From the NCBI GenBank assembly GCA_025774205.1, contig JALGWK010000007.1, forward strand, positions 1 through 16,570: 16,570 nt of DNA, read 5' to 3'. This document shows positions 1 through 15,359 of the stretch, one piece after another (the stretch's first letter is position 1; each line of letters begins with the position of its first letter). Below the pieces are notes generated by a model. It was given only the letters and a program-made list of their open reading frames with translations, did not search any database and had not been told where the DNA came from. Origin of the DNA: a bacterium (GTDB taxonomy: Bacteria; Blakebacterota; Blakebacteria; Blakebacterales; Blakebacteraceae). The translations under genes and the position numbers were made by a program.

Positions 1-294
1 CGGCCTTCCCCCCATGGCGTAGACATCGGAGAGACTGTTCGCGGCCGAGATGGCGCCGAAGGTGGCGGGATCATCCACAACCGGAGTAAAGAAATCCACC
101 GTCTGTATCAGCGCAGTCGACTCATCGAGACGATACACTCCGGCGTCATCCATGGTGGAAGTGCCCACCAGGAGATCGGGATGGTCCTCCCTGTCGAGTG
201 CGCTGAGTGCCTTTGCAAGGTCCTCCGGACCCAGTTTGGACGCTCAACCAGCGCAGGTGACGAGTGCCGTCAGTCTGGTGATGTCACCAGCCAT
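1..294 (-). CDS. selD: Selenophosphate synthase SelD, selenocysteine-containing, 3' part cut by window edge
   Basis: SelD makes selenophosphate from selenide and ATP, the selenium donor for selenocysteine and selenouridine. Translated from ATG at 294 through an in-frame TGA (246-244), the frame gives 98 residues to the window edge. It reads ...[15 protein letters not shown], then MDDAGVY, then [12 protein letters not shown] and [14 protein letters not shown], all diagnostic of the SelD N-terminal half. The TGA is codon 17 and the following Lys is residue 20, matching catalytic Cys17 and Lys20 of E. coli SelD. I therefore read the TGA as selenocysteine, not a stop. The ATG at 294 has AGGA 6 nt upstream; an in-frame ATG at 309 has no clear Shine-Dalgarno. 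It lies 53 bp downstream of the S9 peptidase gene with no evident terminator between, so probably in the same transcript. Standard gene calling would report a 16-codon fragment or a late start. Confidence 0.93.
219..231 (-). promoter_or_regulatory. Candidate bacterial SECIS hairpin in selD
   Basis: Immediately downstream of the in-frame UGA (246-244, minus strand) the mRNA reads GGUCC-GGA-GGACC: a perfect 5-bp stem with a 3-nt loop, extendable by a G-U pair to 218-232. The loop starts 17 nt after the UGA and its first base is G. Short bacterial SECIS elements, recognised by SelB, typically have a small G-containing apical loop about 16-37 nt after the UGA, which fits. The same bases encode the conserved KLGPEDL segment, so protein constraint explains part of the sequence. 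SelB binding is inferred. Confidence 0.6.
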
Positions 295-347
295 GCTCCG
301 TCCTTTCATTCATCACATTCATCCGCCGATCCCTCTCACTTCAGGTA

Positions 348-2582
348 TCAGTGATCCCGATCGGCTCCTTCTTTCAGGTAACGGTCGAAAAAGTCCGCCG
401 CCCGCCGGTAGACCTCCAGCCAGTTGCCATGAAGGAGGAAGCCGTGGACATCGTCCACGAAATAGAGTTCCTCGAAGATGACATCCCGCTTCGCGCGCAG
501 TCTCCGTACCAGGTCGATGCTCGCCTCGAAGGGGACATTCCGGTCATCGTCACCGTGCACGATGAGCACCGGCGAGCGCCATGAATCCATATCGGCCACG
601 GGGCTCGACTCGAAGGCAACCTGCATCATGGAATCACGGACCGACTGGCTTATGCCGGCGGATTCTCCCCGACCCCACCATTCGAGCTGGTCGGCCCAGT
701 TGTGAACCCCGTGCAGATCCACCCCCGCTTTGAAGAGATCTGAATCGCGCGCCAGCCCCAGTGCCGTCAGGTACCCCCCGTAGGAACCGCCCCACAGACC
801 GATCCGGTCGGGATCGACGTTTCCGTGCTCCTGCAGGAAATGACCCGCGGCGACGATATCCTGGTATTCCGACGCTCCCTGGTACCCGTACGCGTCCGGT
901 TCCCGGAAGTCCACCCCGTACCCGATCCCGCTCCGGTAGTTCACCGACAGGACCGCGTACCCCCGTGAGGCCAGGTACTGGTTGAAGCCGTAGGCATTGT
1001 GGTAGTAGCCGCGGTTGTGCCACCCCAGCAGCATCTGCCGACGTGATCCGCCGTGCATGAAGATGACCGCCGGCAGGCGGTCACGGCGCCGCAATCCCTC
1101 GGGGAGGAAAAGCTGGCCGTGCACGATCACGCCGTCAGCGGCCTCGAAAATCACCTGCTCCGGTTTCACCAGGTGATTGAGCGGATATCCCTCCGGGAGC
1201 GGCGAGACCCTCACCCCTGCCGCCTCATCCCTCTCCCTGATGTAGACACTCGCCGGTTCGAGAGCGTCGGACCGGATATAGGCAAGCCACTCCCGGTTGC
1301 GGACCGCGACCGGGTTCCAGGCGATGACCTCGCTGGCTTCTATCTCCAGCGTGTGCCCGTCGGCCAGACGTATCCGGCTCAGCTGCCGGTAATCGATCGA
1401 ACGGGTATTGTGGCTGACGATTATCGACGCTCCGTCCGGGGAGAGTGACGCGTTCTCCACTATCCCGTCGCCCGGCGTCAATTCACGTACCTCGCCACCC
1501 CCGTCGGGGATGACATAGAGATGGTTCCATCCGGACCACTCACCGGCGAAGACAATGTGGCCGTCACCGTACATCAGTCCGTAGGAACCGGAGACAGATC
1601 CGGGATAGTAGCCGGTGCCGTCCCCGGGCGAGCGCCACAGTTCGGTTGTTTCAGCGCTGCCGACATCCACGACGCAGATCGCGAAGCCGCGATGATCGAC
1701 CGGCCGGCGGAGGAAGGCGAGCCGGCTGCCGTCGGGTGACCAGCGCGGCGAGGTGTCACGGTCGACCGTATTGGTGAGCCAGCTCAGTTCTTCCCGCTCC
1801 AGGTTCCAGACTCCGAGGATCGCCCGTCCGTCGCGGGCGCTGGAGAAGGCGAGCATGGAACCGTCGGGAGACCACTGCAGATCGCTCAGGCCCGATCGGA
1901 CCTGGAAGAGGATTTTCGGCTCAAGAAGCGGAGGTTCTTCCCAGTCGAGGAAGACTGGATCCTGTCTCCCCCCCGCTCCACGCGGCGGAGGCGGAGGCGG
2001 AACCCGCCTGCTACGCACCCTGACTGTTACCGCTCCACTGGCTCCTTCTGAAGATCGAGCGGATCGATGCGGGAGAAGATCAAGGAGCATGCAGCGGCCG
2101 GCGGCGGTCCAGACGATCTGGTCCTCGACAGGGGAAATCCGGGGGGAAACCGGCCCGGCGATCCGGACCGGATCATCACCGTTCCATGACACCATCCATA
2201 GATCGCAGGATACCCCCTCCGGCACGCTCAGGGGATTGGGGAGTTCTCCATCGCGGTTCGCCGCACCGCCCCGCAGGTAGATAAGCCGTTCGCCGTCAGG
2301 CAGGAATTCCAGCGCGCCCAGTTCCTGACCATCATCGTCGAGATAGTCCGTGAGCCGGCGCGCTTCCCAGGCGGGGGCTTCGGCGCCCCAGACATTGCGC
2401 CGGCCCTCCTCGTTACCCAGCCAGGCGATCCGCTCACCCGCAGGAGACGCCACCAGACCGGAAGGGAAATGGAAACCCAGGATCTGCTCGAGATCCACCT
2501 CCTGGGCACCCGTGACAGAGGGGAGCGCGGCAACAGTGAGCAGCAGAATGAGCGCGAGCGCGGAAGCCTTCCGGGCGTTCAT
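348..2582 (-). CDS. Secreted S9-family (prolyl oligopeptidase/DPP-type) serine peptidase
   Basis: This 744-residue protein is an exported serine peptidase of clan SC family S9, expected to cleave peptides, often after proline, in the periplasm or outside the cell. Residues 1-26 form a Sec signal peptide (basic n-region, hydrophobic core, Ala-rich end before QEVD). Residues about 40-430 look like a TolB/DPP beta-propeller, with repeated SPDG blades (WSPDGSMLAFSS, WSPDGSRLAFLR, LSPDGASIIVSH). The alpha/beta-hydrolase domain starts near 490, with HGG at 510-512 near the oxyanion hole. The catalytic triad is complete: Ser600 in GGSYGG, Asp680 in HGDDDRNVP, His713 in DDVHGF. A proline run (PPPPPP) sits in a low-complexity linker near residue 195. 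The ATG at 2582 has GGAGGG 8 nt upstream and follows the guanylyltransferase gene by 27 bp. Family assignment is firm; the substrate is unknown. Confidence 0.93.
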   Translation of the reverse strand: MNARKASALALILLLTVAALPSVTGAQEVDLEQILGFHFPSGLVASPAGERIAWLGNEEGRRNVWGAEAPAWEARRLTDYLDDDGQELGALEFLPDGERLIYLRGGAANRDGELPNPLSVPEGVSCDLWMVSWNGDDPVRIAGPVSPRISPVEDQIVWTAAGRCMLLDLLPHRSARSSEGASGAVTVRVRSRRVPPPPPPRGAGGRQDPVFLDWEEPPLLEPKILFQVRSGLSDLQWSPDGSMLAFSSARDGRAILGVWNLEREELSWLTNTVDRDTSPRWSPDGSRLAFLRRPVDHRGFAICVVDVGSAETTELWRSPGDGTGYYPGSVSGSYGLMYGDGHIVFAGEWSGWNHLYVIPDGGGEVRELTPGDGIVENASLSPDGASIIVSHNTRSIDYRQLSRIRLADGHTLEIEASEVIAWNPVAVRNREWLAYIRSDALEPASVYIRERDEAAGVRVSPLPEGYPLNHLVKPEQVIFEAADGVIVHGQLFLPEGLRRRDRLPAVIFMHGGSRRQMLLGWHNRGYYHNAYGFNQYLASRGYAVLSVNYRSGIGYGVDFREPDAYGYQGASEYQDIVAAGHFLQEHGNVDPDRIGLWGGSYGGYLTALGLARDSDLFKAGVDLHGVHNWADQLEWWGRGESAGISQSVRDSMMQVAFESSPVADMDSWRSPVLIVHGDDDRNVPFEASIDLVRRLRAKRDVIFEELYFVDDVHGFLLHGNWLEVYRRAADFFDRYLKEGADRDH

Positions 2583-3722: not shown

Positions 3723-5114
3723 TCAGTCCTTCGGCTTGAAGCGGGCCTGGAAGAACCGGAGATACTGCGGTTCATGCACCATCTCGAACCCAGTTATGGA
3801 GTCGCGACGGTCCCAGACCTCCCAGATCGTTTCGGCGGTCACATCCATGTGCGCCTGGGTGTAGACCCGGCGCGGGATGGTGAGCCGTACCAGTTCCAGC
3901 CCCACCCTGATGTTCTCACCGGTCTCCTTGTTCCTGCCGGCCGATACGATACCCCGTTCCATGCTGCGGACACCAGCCTCGAGGAAGATCTCCGCGGCCA
4001 GCTTCTGGGCCGGGAACTCCTCCTGGTCGAGGTGGGAGAGGAACGCCCCGGCGTCGAGGAAAACCGCGTGACCGCCCACCGGCTGGATGATCGGGATCCC
4101 CTCCGCGGCGATCTTCTCGCCCAGGTAGACCACCTGGCCCACCCGCGCGGCGATATGGTCATCCTCCACCGATTCATGGATTCCGCGTGCCAGCGCCTCC
4201 ATGTCACGACCCGCCATGCCGCCGTAGGTATGCAGACCCTCGTAGATGACCACCATGTTCCGGGCCTGCTCGAAGACCTCAGCGTCACGCAGGGCAAGAT
4301 AGCCGCCGATGTTGACCAGGTGGTCCTTCTTCGAACTCATCCAGGCCCCTTCCATGAAGGAGCAGATCTCGAGGACGATCTCCGCCACGCTCTTATCCGC
4401 GTAGCCCGGTTCCCGCTGCTGGATGAAGTAGGCGCCCTCGGCTATCCGGGTCTTGTCGAGGTAGACCGGGATTCCGTGCTTCTGGCAGAGCGTATGGAGG
4501 TCGCGGATGTTCTCCATGCTGATCGGCTGTCCGCCGGCCATGTTCACCGTGGTTGCGAGACAGAAGTAGGGGATCCGATCGGCGCCCACCCGATCGATGA
4601 GATCCTCCAGCTTGTTCAGGTCCACATTCGCCTTGAAGGGGTGTTCGCCCGCCGGATCGTGGGCCTCGTCGATGATCACATCCACGAACGTACCGCCCGC
4701 GAGTTCCTGGTGCAGCCTGGTGGTGGTGAAGTACATGTTCCCCGGGATGAAATCACCGTCGGAGATCAGGATCTGGCTGATCATGTGTTCGGCGGCGCGG
4801 CCCTGGTGGGTCGGGACCAGGTAGGGGAAACCGTAGACCTTCTCGACCGATTCGCAGAGGTTGTAGAAGTTCTCACTGCCGGCGTAAGCCTCATCGCCGA
4901 GCATCATGCCGGCCCACTGATTGGCCGACATGGCGCTCGTTCCGCTGTCGGTGAGCAGGTCGATGTAGACGTCTTCGCTCTTCAGCAGAAAGGTGTTCCA
5001 TCCCGCCTCATCGAGCGCGTCGAGCCGCTGTTCGCGGGTGGTCATCCGGATCGGCTCGACCACCTTTATCTTGAATGGTTCCGCCCACGATGTTCGGCGC
5101 GTTCCCCTGGTCAT
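3723..5114 (-). CDS. tpl: Tyrosine phenol-lyase-like PLP-dependent beta-eliminating lyase
   Basis: A 463-residue member of the tyrosine phenol-lyase/tryptophanase family (fold-type I PLP enzymes). Tyrosine phenol-lyase splits L-tyrosine into phenol, pyruvate and ammonia. At a constant offset of +6 from the Citrobacter freundii enzyme (recalled numbering), all key residues are present: Tyr77, Arg106, Phe129-Thr130, Asn191, Asp220, Arg223, Lys262 and the PLP Lys263 (MSSKKD), His349, Arg387 (SMERG), Arg410, Phe454-Phe455. Thr130 and Arg387 favour tyrosine phenol-lyase over tryptophanase, which has Asp and Ile there. Differences from the reference are Lys221 after Asp220 (normally Ala), Ser261 before the lysine pair (normally Gly), and EGAW for DGCT at 255-258. 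The ATG at 5114 has AGGAG about 6-7 nt upstream. It is first in the apparent minus-strand operon. Family is certain; exact substrate is inferred from residues. Confidence 0.85.
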   Translation of the reverse strand: MTRGTRRTSWAEPFKIKVVEPIRMTTREQRLDALDEAGWNTFLLKSEDVYIDLLTDSGTSAMSANQWAGMMLGDEAYAGSENFYNLCESVEKVYGFPYLVPTHQGRAAEHMISQILISDGDFIPGNMYFTTTRLHQELAGGTFVDVIIDEAHDPAGEHPFKANVDLNKLEDLIDRVGADRIPYFCLATTVNMAGGQPISMENIRDLHTLCQKHGIPVYLDKTRIAEGAYFIQQREPGYADKSVAEIVLEICSFMEGAWMSSKKDHLVNIGGYLALRDAEVFEQARNMVVIYEGLHTYGGMAGRDMEALARGIHESVEDDHIAARVGQVVYLGEKIAAEGIPIIQPVGGHAVFLDAGAFLSHLDQEEFPAQKLAAEIFLEAGVRSMERGIVSAGRNKETGENIRVGLELVRLTIPRRVYTQAHMDVTAETIWEVWDRRDSITGFEMVHEPQYLRFFQARFKPKD

Positions 5115-8723: not shown

Positions 8724-10823
8724 TCAGTGATCAGGGGGATGGGGGTGGAGCGCCAGCAGGGTGATCTCCCGGCTGATCTCCCGGTCGAGCAGGTTGTCCG
8801 TCACCGTCACCCGCAGCCGGTAGGGTCCTTCGGGGTACTCCTCCAGGCTCAGGTTCGGCCGGTGGGTGTTATCCGCCCGCCGGCTCCGATATCGTGAGGA
8901 GAGGGCGACGACAGACTCACCCCGGGTGATCCCCAGGAGGGCCGCGACCGAGGACTGGATGGTCCGGGGCCGTCTCTCATAATCCGTTTCCGGGAAGATC
9001 TCGTAGGTGATGTCGTAGTCGGTGATCCCCTCGATATCCCGGCTGAGATTATAGACTTCGAAATAGACCTGGAAGGCACGATCGATATCACACACTCCCG
9101 CCGGTTGGGGCAGGTACGCCAGGCCTTCATCGAGGAGGTGCTGTTCCGGCTCGCCGAGGGTGTCGGCCGAGGCCAGGACCAGGTCGCTCACGGCGAGCCC
9201 GCTCCCGGAAAAATCGCGAATGTCGAGGGCCACCGGTCCCATCGAACCATACCGCTGGGAGGCCCGGTGGGAGATAAACGCGGAAACCTGGTATTCGCCC
9301 GGATCGACCTCTATGGCGATCGCCTCCACGAACCTTCGTGACCTCTGGATCCGGGTCGCGGGACCTGCCCGGACCATCCTGGCCCGCTCCACCTCGGCGC
9401 TGATCCGAAGGTCGTCATCCAGCAGGGTGATCTCGCTGAGCATGGCTTCGGACGGCAGTGAATCGAGCGTGGCGCCGACCAGTTCAGATACCGGGATCGA
9501 GAACAGGGAGTGGACCAGCGTTCGGCCTTCCGAACCCCGGAACTGGGCTACCCTGAAGGCCGGACTGAGTGATTCGTTCAGTTCCTCCAGGTTCGAGATC
9601 ATCGGCAGGCGGTTCTTCAGGGTGTCATTCAGGGCGAGACTGTCGCCGGTCAGCTGCAGCTCACCACCGACCGACGGATCACGCAGGACGAAGAGGAGTC
9701 CCTCCCACTTCCAGATCCAGAATGAGAATCGACCCGGTCCCCTTGGCGGTTCGAAATCAGTGTTGAAGAACGTGGTGCTGTTGCCCGAGTCGAAGGAACT
9801 CACCGGCAGGCCGAGTTCGAGCATCCTCGATCGCCACTGTGACTGGAAATCACCATCCATGATCATATTGAGGCTCAGACCGGAGGTGCTCGTGACGCGG
9901 TAATCAGGCAGACCGTACCTCACCACGAGTTCCCCTCTGACGTCCCATGGGAAGGTCGCCCCTCCGAACCGGTTCCGTGCCTCCGCGACCCGCCACAGGT
10001 GCTCGATGAATCGGGTGGCGTACCCGTCCAGCTGGGCTCCACCCCGACGGGCCCAGTAACGCCTGCGGTAGAGAGCCCGGGCCTCGTCCTCGAGCGCCTG
10101 GTACTGCTCCTCTTCGGCCCGGGTCAGGAGGGGTGAGATGTCGAAGATCACCTCCCGTTCACGCGGGGAGAGGATCGAAAGATAGCGCCGGGCCACGAGA
10201 GCGGCAGACGCCCATTCCCGTTTCTTCAGGTACAGTTTGAGGAGTGGTCGGTAGATCCTCGGATCGGTCCTGAAATCCACCAGTGACCGGGCCGCGAGAG
10301 ATTCGGCCAGTTCCCATTCCCGCATGTCGACCGAGAGTTCCAGCAGCGAGATGGTGGCTTCCATGTGATGGGGATCGGCCTGGAGCTGATTCTCGAAATC
10401 GATCCCGGCCCGGAGGGAATCACTGAGTCCTTCCAGGTACGCCCTACCCCTCTTCAGGTATACATCGGGATAAGATGGATTCAGTTCGATGACCCGATCG
10501 AAGGCACGGACGGCGTTGCGCGCCCGCCGTTCGGTGAGTCCCCGGTCGAGGAGCGTGAGGTAGACCTCGCCCTGCACCATCCAGGCCCTGACATCTTCCC
10601 GGTCGATCCGGGTGGCGCGCCGTATCAACCGGAGCGCCTCTTCACCCCGGCCTGCCTCCAGGGCGGTCCGGGCCTGCCCGACCAGGTCCTCCTGGCCCGC
10701 GACCGGCATGACTGTCAGCAGGGTCAGGAACAGGGTGAGACGGATGATGAAAGAGGTTCCGGTCAGACGCGGAGTCGATCGGTCGGCACCGGAGCAGGAC
10801 CGGCCGGAAGCGGGCCGGTCAAT
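8724..10823 (-). CDS. Secreted TPR + GWxTD-family protein (start uncertain, probably AUU)
   Basis: About 699 residues. A hydrophobic signal segment (IIRLTLFLTLLTVMPVAGQ) is followed by several tetratricopeptide-like helical pairs (RTALEAGRGEEALRLIRRA, AFDRVIELNPSYPDVYLKRG and others). A GWxTD-type region then carries YWARR, a helical ARNRFGG and PWDVRGELVVRYGLPDYR. The C-terminal half is beta-rich, with YQVSAF, DLVLAS and VYFEVYNLSRD. GWxTD proteins occur in Gemmatimonadota, Acidobacteriota and relatives; their role is unknown. The only ATG giving a longer frame (10928) lies deep in the radical SAM gene without a usable ribosome site, and a GTG at 10865 is poorly placed. ATT at 10823-10821 overlaps the preceding TGA and has AGGGAG 7 nt upstream, so I take it as the start; CTG at 10766 is another option. 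Stop and frame are secure; the start is not. Confidence 0.82.
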   Translation of the reverse strand: MDRPASGRSCSGADRSTPRLTGTSFIIRLTLFLTLLTVMPVAGQEDLVGQARTALEAGRGEEALRLIRRATRIDREDVRAWMVQGEVYLTLLDRGLTERRARNAVRAFDRVIELNPSYPDVYLKRGRAYLEGLSDSLRAGIDFENQLQADPHHMEATISLLELSVDMREWELAESLAARSLVDFRTDPRIYRPLLKLYLKKREWASAALVARRYLSILSPREREVIFDISPLLTRAEEEQYQALEDEARALYRRRYWARRGGAQLDGYATRFIEHLWRVAEARNRFGGATFPWDVRGELVVRYGLPDYRVTSTSGLSLNMIMDGDFQSQWRSRMLELGLPVSSFDSGNSTTFFNTDFEPPRGPGRFSFWIWKWEGLLFVLRDPSVGGELQLTGDSLALNDTLKNRLPMISNLEELNESLSPAFRVAQFRGSEGRTLVHSLFSIPVSELVGATLDSLPSEAMLSEITLLDDDLRISAEVERARMVRAGPATRIQRSRRFVEAIAIEVDPGEYQVSAFISHRASQRYGSMGPVALDIRDFSGSGLAVSDLVLASADTLGEPEQHLLDEGLAYLPQPAGVCDIDRAFQVYFEVYNLSRDIEGITDYDITYEIFPETDYERRPRTIQSSVAALLGITRGESVVALSSRYRSRRADNTHRPNLSLEEYPEGPYRLRVTVTDNLLDREISREITLLALHPHPPDH

Positions 10824-11841
10824 AGGTGAACTCCCTGATATCGTAACTGCCCTGTCGGGGTCCACCCACCTGAGACGGTCTGAGGGCCGAGGCGATGATC
10901 CGCTGCTGTTCCGCCATACCCGTGTCATCGAGAGCCGTTATCCCCTCCTGCCGCGCGATCACTCCGTAGACCGCGCCGGGCATTTCCACATGCCTGCTGA
11001 AGTATACCATATCCTTCGAATCGAGAGGCAGTTCGCCGAGCACATCGATCGTATCCCGGATGTGTCCGTCACTGTACTCCCGGCCTCCTGCTCCGAGGAG
11101 TATGACGAGCGACACCTCCAGTCCGGCCACCTTCATCGCCGTCACGGTTGTGATGACATCATCAACAGTGCCCGGTTTGTTGAGCCACCGCAGGAGTGGA
11201 TCGTGCCCCGACTCCATACCGATGCAGATCCTCCGGAGTCCCCTCTCCCTGAGTCGCCGGTACTCATCCGGCTCCTTCTTCGCCCCCGAGAACCCGTCGA
11301 GGAAGGTGTGCATCCCCCCGCTCCATGGCGGCGTTCCCCGGTAGTGGGCAGCCACGATGTCGAGCAGCGGCAGGAGATCTTCGGTCGGCAGGACGAGCGC
11401 GTTTGCGTCCCCCAGAAAAATCGATCGCCTCAGACCGATCCCTTCCCCGAGGAAGGAGTCGATCCGCGTCAGGTGTTCACGCAGGCCATCACCATCAGTG
11501 GCCGAGAAGGGTGTATCCCGGTAAAAGGCGCAGAACGTACAGGCATTGAACCGGCAGCCGTGGGTGAGCTGGACAACCAGGGCCATGTACTGATCGGGCG
11601 GGAGGATGCCGACCGGTGACCAGGTACGGGCGAATTCATCCGCCCCGGCCAGAAGGGAGTCACTGCTCACGGCAGCAACTTTCTCGAGGATGGCGTAGAG
11701 GGTGGGTGGCGGTGGTTCAGCCGGTCCGGCGCCGGCTACCGGCTCGAGACCGGCCAGGTCGCCGTCGACAACCTGATCGAGCAGGGGCGCAAGGCGGTCG
11801 CGGGTACGTTCCCACAGCGCGACCGCCTCATCCGATTCCAT
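10819..11841 (-). CDS. Radical SAM enzyme (Elp3/HemN-like core), N-terminus longer than first ATG
   Basis: From ATG 11841 the frame gives 340 residues. The [4Fe-4S]/SAM motif is CRFNACTFC (Cys96, Cys101, Cys104), spaced CX4CX2C, one residue more than the canonical CX3CX2C; a similar spacing is known in some uncharacterised radical SAM families. Further core elements are SIFLGDANALVLP, RRICIGMESGHDPLL (a radical SAM GxES-like strand) and LVILLGAGG. There is no SPASM or B12 domain. The product is unknown; radical chemistry on a small molecule or peptide is expected. The frame continues open and protein-like upstream of this ATG to a stop at 12099 (see 11842-12096), so the true start is probably earlier and non-canonical. 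It follows a lipoprotein gene and overlaps the start of the TPR gene, suggesting an operon. Confidence 0.87.
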   Translation of the reverse strand: MESDEAVALWERTRDRLAPLLDQVVDGDLAGLEPVAGAGPAEPPPPTLYAILEKVAAVSSDSLLAGADEFARTWSPVGILPPDQYMALVVQLTHGCRFNACTFCAFYRDTPFSATDGDGLREHLTRIDSFLGEGIGLRRSIFLGDANALVLPTEDLLPLLDIVAAHYRGTPPWSGGMHTFLDGFSGAKKEPDEYRRLRERGLRRICIGMESGHDPLLRWLNKPGTVDDVITTVTAMKVAGLEVSLVILLGAGGREYSDGHIRDTIDVLGELPLDSKDMVYFSRHVEMPGAVYGVIARQEGITALDDTGMAEQQRIIASALRPSQVGGPRQGSYDIREFTY

Positions 11842-13084: not shown

Positions 13085-13136
13085 CATGCAACATTCATAT
13101 CACCAACGGCAACCATGGATCGTGACAGGCCTGATT

Positions 13137-15359
13137 ATGAAAAACCCTCAATACCCTGTTCTTCCCCGCCAGATTTCACGCCTGGCGCTCCTCTTCATCG
13201 TTGGCTCCCTGGTGACTGCCTGTGCCGGCCCCTCCTCCCTGGAGGTGACCCGGGCCCTGGCTCCCCAGGTCTCCTCCGACCGGATCGAAGAGGTCAGACT
13301 CACGGCGCTGCTCGTCGACGGCCCCACACTCCGGCAGATGCGCCAGAGCGAGGACCTGGGTGCCTGGCTCGATGACTGGTGGCAGCGGCTCGATCCGATC
13401 CCGACGACACCGGTAAACGAAGCCATGCAGGTCTACCAGCAGCGGCTCGAGTTCCTGAAGAACCGATTTCCTGAACTGATCGAGAACGAGTGGCCGGAAC
13501 TCATGGTCCTGTTTCTCCATCACGGTTCCCCCGACTGGCAGGGCCCTGAATTTGTCCCGTGGCCCCGACCTGATGATGAAGGGAACGAGCGCACCATCCC
13601 GACCATCTCCGGGGGATTCCAGTGGGAGCGGATGAGGTACGGCGCGCCCCACTCTTTCACACTGGTCATTGAACAGGGGAAGGTACGCGATGACCCTGAA
13701 GAGCCTGTACCCACCGGCCCGCCCTCCCTGGTAGGAACCTGGGAGGCGCTGGAGGGAAGTCGGGCGGGCACTGCCGAGCGCATCGACGCCCTCAACCGGA
13801 TCTCATGGTACGAACTGCCCGCGATCGCCTCACGACTGCTGAATATTCCCCGGTCGAGATTCTCCGGCATGCAGGAGGAATACCAGGCCGCCCTGGAGCG
13901 GATCTCCGTCCGCAGCGCCTATCGCCTCGGAGTCGAGGGCATCCGACGTCTGGCCGCCCTGCGAGCGGCCGGGGCCTCTCCCGACCTCTGCATCCGTCGA
14001 GCGATGTCGGGTGATTACAGCCTCCGGAACCTGCTGACCGACCTGCGGCCCCTCGCTGCCCGGCGGTATATTCTGTCCCAGGGGGGTAACCGCGGTCCTC
14101 ATCCCCTGCTCTGGCTGAATCCCGACGGGCTCCTGGACAGCCTGGTCAGGGATTTCCCCGCCTCCCACACGATGACGGGATGGGACTGGCGGGGTGACGT
14201 CTTCCTCGCCTTCGGCGCTCCCGCGTATCTGGATATCAATAACCGTGAGGCCCGATACCTCTGGGGAACACCGGAGATTCTCGGGATCAGCGACACCATG
14301 CTCGGCAAGGTGGACGCGGCCCTGCTCGATGATCAGCTGGGCTCATTCATCCAGCAGACGATCGGCACCATCCAGCGGCGCCGGATCCAGGCGAACCAGG
14401 CAGCGGAGACTGTCTCGGAGATACTGGCCGATGGCGGCAGCACCGCGGTGACCAGGGGCATGCTCGATCAGCTCCATGTGCTGGCCCCGCCCCTGGTATA
14501 CAACATGGGCCTGCCGGAGGGGATCCGTCCGATACCGATCTCGATGGATGTCGTGGCCTTCCCGACCGAGACCGATTCAGTCGAGGTGCAGACCACCTTC
14601 GGTATCCCGGCCAACTCTGTGCGGATGAGGGCCCAGGAGGATTTCCTGATCACCGATCTCAGGACCACCATCGTGATGGTCGACCACGATATGAACGTGG
14701 TCCACGCCGAGACACGTCAGCAGGGATATGTGATCAATACCTCGGAGGGCACTACGGGGAGGTTCTTCCTCGACACCTATCGATTCAGGATCCCCCCCGG
14801 CTCCTACATCGCTTTCCTGTCCGCTGAGGACCCGAACGGAGAGAAGTCGGGCGCGGCGATGGTCAGCGTCGATCTTACCGCGATGGGCGCCAACCAGCTG
14901 CATGTCTCTCCCATCCTGCTCGCCTCGGACATCCAGCCGACCGAAGAGGATGGCAAGTTCGTCAGAGGAGGACTGCAGATACTCCCGGCCCCATCGAGAC
15001 GGTTCCTCTACGGGGACGACCTGTTCTTCTACTACGAGGTCGAGAATCTCAGCCGCTCGGCGGTCGGGGATCACGTGATCAGCGAGTCCCTCTACATCAT
15101 TCCGAATGATACCGAGGAAGGGATCATCACCATCTCGACCGGTCAGGACATATCCAGCCTGACCCCTTCATTGAGCCGGAGCATGCAGATAGATCTCTCG
15201 AGTCTCGGCCGGTCGTATGAAGGCGCGGTGCATCTCGTGGTACTGGTGACTGACCGGGTGTCTGGTGAACAGGCAGTGGGAGCCACCCTGCTGATCCTGC
15301 GCCACCCCCGGGCAGAGGGAGAGGAACCACCGCCGAACGGGAACCGGGACAACCACTGA
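13137..15359 (+). CDS. GWxTD-family lipoprotein, paralogous to the TPR + GWxTD protein
   Basis: The 740-residue product starts at ATG 13137, with AGG about 9 nt upstream. It has a lipoprotein signal ending SLVTAC (Cys29). A first GWxTD-like unit reads LDDWWQRLDPIPTTPVNEAM followed by RLEFLKNRF and LMVLFLHHGSPDW. A second, near the middle, reads GWDWRGDVFLAFGAPAYLD and YLWGTPE. The C-terminal half is beta-rich: PPGSYIAFLS, SPILLAS, DDLFFYYEVENLSRS and VLVTDRVSGEQAVG. It ends in a hydrophilic tail. The C-terminal half aligns by eye with that of the TPR + GWxTD protein on the other strand. An upstream ATG at 13086 would add 17 residues before the signal and lacks a ribosome site. The M24 peptidase gene follows after 18 bp, so they are probably co-transcribed. 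Role unknown; membrane-anchored, probably in the periplasm. Confidence 0.85.
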   Translation: MKNPQYPVLPRQISRLALLFIVGSLVTACAGPSSLEVTRALAPQVSSDRIEEVRLTALLVDGPTLRQMRQSEDLGAWLDDWWQRLDPIPTTPVNEAMQVYQQRLEFLKNRFPELIENEWPELMVLFLHHGSPDWQGPEFVPWPRPDDEGNERTIPTISGGFQWERMRYGAPHSFTLVIEQGKVRDDPEEPVPTGPPSLVGTWEALEGSRAGTAERIDALNRISWYELPAIASRLLNIPRSRFSGMQEEYQAALERISVRSAYRLGVEGIRRLAALRAAGASPDLCIRRAMSGDYSLRNLLTDLRPLAARRYILSQGGNRGPHPLLWLNPDGLLDSLVRDFPASHTMTGWDWRGDVFLAFGAPAYLDINNREARYLWGTPEILGISDTMLGKVDAALLDDQLGSFIQQTIGTIQRRRIQANQAAETVSEILADGGSTAVTRGMLDQLHVLAPPLVYNMGLPEGIRPIPISMDVVAFPTETDSVEVQTTFGIPANSVRMRAQEDFLITDLRTTIVMVDHDMNVVHAETRQQGYVINTSEGTTGRFFLDTYRFRIPPGSYIAFLSAEDPNGEKSGAAMVSVDLTAMGANQLHVSPILLASDIQPTEEDGKFVRGGLQILPAPSRRFLYGDDLFFYYEVENLSRSAVGDHVISESLYIIPNDTEEGIITISTGQDISSLTPSLSRSMQIDLSSLGRSYEGAVHLVVLVTDRVSGEQAVGATLLILRHPRAEGEEPPPNGNRDNH

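Follow-up and report, generated by a model that had tools for sequence, protein, structure and literature searches.

A bacterial selD gene with a predicted selenocysteine at the catalytic position of its product

The minus strand at the left edge of the 16,570-nucleotide stretch of DNA analysed here (the window) almost certainly carries, as judged by sequence comparison, the 5' portion of a selD gene of ordinary bacterial kind, with selenocysteine (Sec) as catalytic residue. Contig C412, which makes up the window, comes from a draft genome (G000; 3.09 Mb, 527 contigs, 86% complete), one of the four species of our phylum sample together with G001 of the same genus and G002 and G003 of the same family, G003 belonging to another genus. 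Translation of positions 294 to 1 gives the first 98 codons of selD, starting at ATG 294, in a frame that stays open up to the contig edge and whose sole stop is a TGA at codon 17. The initial annotation had read this frame as SelD continuing past the TGA, and the NCBIfam selD model TIGR00476 agrees: it matches the window peptide, with Cys placed at the TGA, over model positions 1-95 (2e-36). The 98-residue fragment scores 125.8 bits, above the model cut-off of 125 despite the gene being partial, and the complete G001 orthologue scores 351 bits. The features are as follows.

1-294, minus strand: selD, first 98 codons, selenide, water dikinase with predicted Sec17 (translation; TIGR00476; complete orthologues in G001 and G003)
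244-246, minus strand: in-frame TGA, codon 17, predicted selenocysteine (alignment to E. coli SelD, PDB 3u0o, via the G001 orthologue; TGA in G000, G001 and G003)
235-237, minus strand: codon 20, AAA, the conserved Lys20 of SelD (translation, codon comparison, 3u0o alignment)
296-305, minus strand: Shine-Dalgarno-like AAGGACGGAG, judged good, ahead of ATG 294 (sequence)
218-232, minus strand: apical hairpin GGGUCC-GGA-GGACCU, candidate bacterial SECIS (folding; conservation in G001 and G003; Sec genes compared with Cys genes)
204-246, minus strand: extended stem-loop including the UGA and the apical hairpin, its lower stem predicted and less certain (folding)
348-2582, minus strand: upstream gene, S9-type peptidase with TolB-like propeller, the same neighbour being found in G001

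Identity as a selenophosphate synthetase is indicated by the match to the curated selD model together with the presence of Cys/Sec17, Lys20 and the conserved acidic motifs. Alignment of the G001 orthologue with E. coli SelD (residues 5-341, E = 1e-66) places the UGA residue on catalytic Cys17 and the lysine on Lys20, as the initial annotation had proposed. The first two acidic SelD motifs (metal and ATP site) are present in the window peptide, and the third, TDVTGFG, is found on C32, another contig of this draft, and also in G001.

Contig C32 is the second place in G000 hit by the selD model (C32:2992-3321, model 201-309), running off that contig's end. It reads EVMLSLNAAAAEAMLEAGATACTDVTGFGLGGHGHQ... 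through to a stop, is equivalent to residues 202-345 of the complete G001 gene, and matches the C-terminus of this single-domain gene at 72% over 144 codons. C32 therefore most likely holds the last 144 codons of the window's own selD; its reading as the end of a second or fused SelD was dropped because of this match. C412 and C32 do not overlap directly and about 103 codons between them are unassembled. A third place, on C233, belongs to the wider superfamily but is only distantly related; it covers model positions 40-261 at 78 bits and has no TGA.

Comparison within the family extends the reading frame beyond the window. In both G001 and G003 a single-domain selD is complete, at 345 codons, and is interrupted once, by a TGA at the same codon; the presence of TGA at this position in two related genomes excludes chance. 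No selD was found in G002 (assembly 72% complete). The contig edge inside the gene and the fragmented state of the 527-contig draft could suggest that an error of sequencing or assembly hides a TGC or TGT codon (Cys-SelD), a possibility that the initial annotation had itself raised. However, two other family genomes have TGA at this codon, and its occurrence in three separate species-level genomes makes such an error very unlikely. Most of the similar SelD genes collected from these genomes and from other bacteria likewise have TGA (80 of 95, the other 15 having TGT or TGC for Cys), a majority partly due to the choice of the 95 genes by their similarity to the window gene.

Gene order in G001 matches the window (cNMP-binding protein, amidohydrolase, tyrosine phenol-lyase, mannose-1-phosphate guanylyltransferase, S9 peptidase, selD), and over codons 18-98 the two genes have 89% identical residues, with dS 0.72, dN 0.078 and a ratio of 0.11. 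This ratio indicates selection at the protein level downstream of the TGA, which argues against a pseudogene in which a nonsense mutation broke selD while another SelD does the work. Such redundancy does exist in the family, since G003 has, besides its Sec-SelD, a SelD of the Cys type joined to a cysteine desulfurase. Yet the stop is common to different genera, the frame has no other disruption, and the selD model search found no second SelD over cut-off in G000 or G001, so that decay of the gene is scarcely credible.

Other genes of the window deserve brief mention. Tyrosine phenol-lyase (3723-5114, minus strand) scores 735.6 bits against a curated cut-off of 720.7 and adjoins mannose-1-phosphate guanylyltransferase, a pair kept in G001. 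Two large proteins (8724-10928, minus strand, and 13086-15359, plus strand) give weak matches, below curated cut-off, to the GWxTD domain, and one of the two has TPR repeats.

The initial annotation had deduced that the genome encodes SelA, SelB and tRNA-Sec, and all three are found in the same draft. The selA gene on C467 scores 382 bits, over the curated cut-off, and C490 shares 114 identical overlapping bases with it, so that selA is one gene. SelB is encoded on C389 (313 bits, over cut-off) and tRNA-Sec on C455 (65.9 bits against a gathering score of 47), the latter called by ARAGORN as tRNA-SeC with anticodon TCA. G001 also has selA, selB and tRNA-Sec; G003 has selA and tRNA-Sec, with no selB over cut-off in its 63% complete assembly. 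Genetic codes in which UGA is reassigned occur in some bacteria, and the codon could be thought to specify another amino acid through such a code or because a near-cognate tRNA simply reads through it. This is most improbable: the upstream gene 348-2582 terminates in TGA, which is thus also a normal stop in the window organism, the genome has a dedicated tRNA-Sec and SelB, and the codon lies at the sole catalytic position occupied by Cys or Sec.

Other uses of selenium were also sought. Selenouridine synthase (TIGR03167), another use of selenophosphate, gave no match over cut-off in the four genomes. The GrdB model PF07355 had no match, but its control likewise gave none, and matches to the formate dehydrogenase alpha model were all below cut-off and without internal TGA. 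Reading through all TGA codons of the window yielded long but uninformative frames. G001 (L158, C48:4928-5146) and G003 (L159, C147:1793-2011) each encode a SelW-like (Rdx) protein whose frame contains one TGA, in G003 within a CAVU motif; this second selenoprotein of the phylum was not found in the incomplete G000.

The sequence after the UGA, AAACUGGGUCCGGAGGACCU, folds into a hairpin that starts 14 nt past the first base of the UGA, with a loop that starts 20 nt past it and contains G. With its lower stem the structure has a predicted energy of -16.4 kcal/mol and a z score of -1.25, weak when taken alone. Across the family genomes the hairpin keeps the form GGGUCC-GG(A/C)-GGACCU, and G000, G001 and G003 share the same codons at positions 20-23 and 25 while most flanking codons differ. 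Against a synonymous-codon null the hairpin has p = 0.07 in G000, 0.02 in G001 and 0.007 in G003, values to be read with the family peptide KLGP(E/A)DL in mind, which by itself favours the letters GGTCC...GGACC. The 80 Sec genes have a mean hairpin score of 13.6, their synonymous-codon shuffles one of 7.5; for the 15 Cys genes the corresponding means are 6.2 and 4.6. Scores are far higher in Sec than in Cys genes (Mann-Whitney p ~1e-4, relatedness ignored). Such a conserved hairpin is what is expected of a bacterial SECIS element, for which it is a candidate.

By analogy with known families, the UGA at codon 17 of the mRNA would be followed by this small SECIS hairpin, on which SelB carrying Sec-tRNA-Sec (anticodon UCA) would dock to insert Sec instead of termination. 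The finished SelD would then make selenophosphate from ATP and a reduced form of selenium, and SelA would use this product to make Sec-tRNA-Sec. Since this synthesis needs the selenophosphate of SelD, the enzyme would help to make its own active residue. The finding implies that UGA is decoded as selenocysteine in this sparsely sampled lineage, where standard gene callers are prone to mis-annotate selD. The initial annotation foresaw the latter, and a mechanical ORF list indeed places the start of the G001 gene 26 codons past the UGA, at an internal GTG.

The motif around the catalytic residue varies among SelD proteins. E. coli SelD belongs to the same family by sequence and shares the positions of Cys17 and Lys20 with the window gene, but it is of the Cys type, GCGCK (Cys17, Cys19), whereas the window has CAGUASK (Cys14, Sec17, no Cys19). 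In a sample drawn with a Cys14 query and with relatedness ignored, Cys14 (CxxU) is found in 34 of the 80 Sec-SelD genes, Cys19 (UxC) in 10 and both in none (L022-L133); Cys14 is present in 0 of the 15 Cys-SelD genes. A speculative and rather unlikely proposal is that the phylum, maybe one without reported selenoproteins, has a Sec-dependent SelD of a CxxU type (Cys14-Ala-Gly-Sec17) in which Cys14 could be a resolving thiol.

NifS-SelD fusions are reported to be rare, with two instances in prokaryotes (PMC4561486). The fusion of G003 (C304, L134:773-2989), carried alongside the stand-alone Sec-SelD, is a 738-residue protein composed of a NifS-type cysteine desulfurase and a Cys-type SelD with the motif LGCACK. 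It has the C-terminal SelD domain in common with the window gene but differs by its N-terminal cysteine desulfurase and by Cys (TGT) in place of Sec, and is separate from the window's orthologue. G004, G032 and G047 have open frames of comparable size (744-748 aa) that also carry LGCACK.

Selenocysteine at the catalytic position of SelD, invoked in the initial annotation, has long been known (PMC1794560, PMC4561486). SelD ranks second in frequency among bacterial selenoproteins, with Sec-SelD of, for example, Clostridioides difficile, Geobacter and Desulfovibrio among the selenoproteins (PMC1794560). In tblastn searches against plasmids, SelD genes of other bacteria alone matched. Known Sec-SelD resemble the window gene in the position of Sec, Lys20, the single domain of about 345 residues, the SECIS-like hairpin past the UGA and the genomic selA, selB and selC; the sole difference is sequence divergence, the best matches outside its own family reaching at most 71% identity. 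The organism belongs to a small phylum, but selenium use is described for almost all bacterial phyla (PMC5029168), and the window gene is therefore most simply taken as a correctly read, ordinary selenoprotein gene, a real but ordinary case of a known arrangement that leaves the picture of SelD unchanged.
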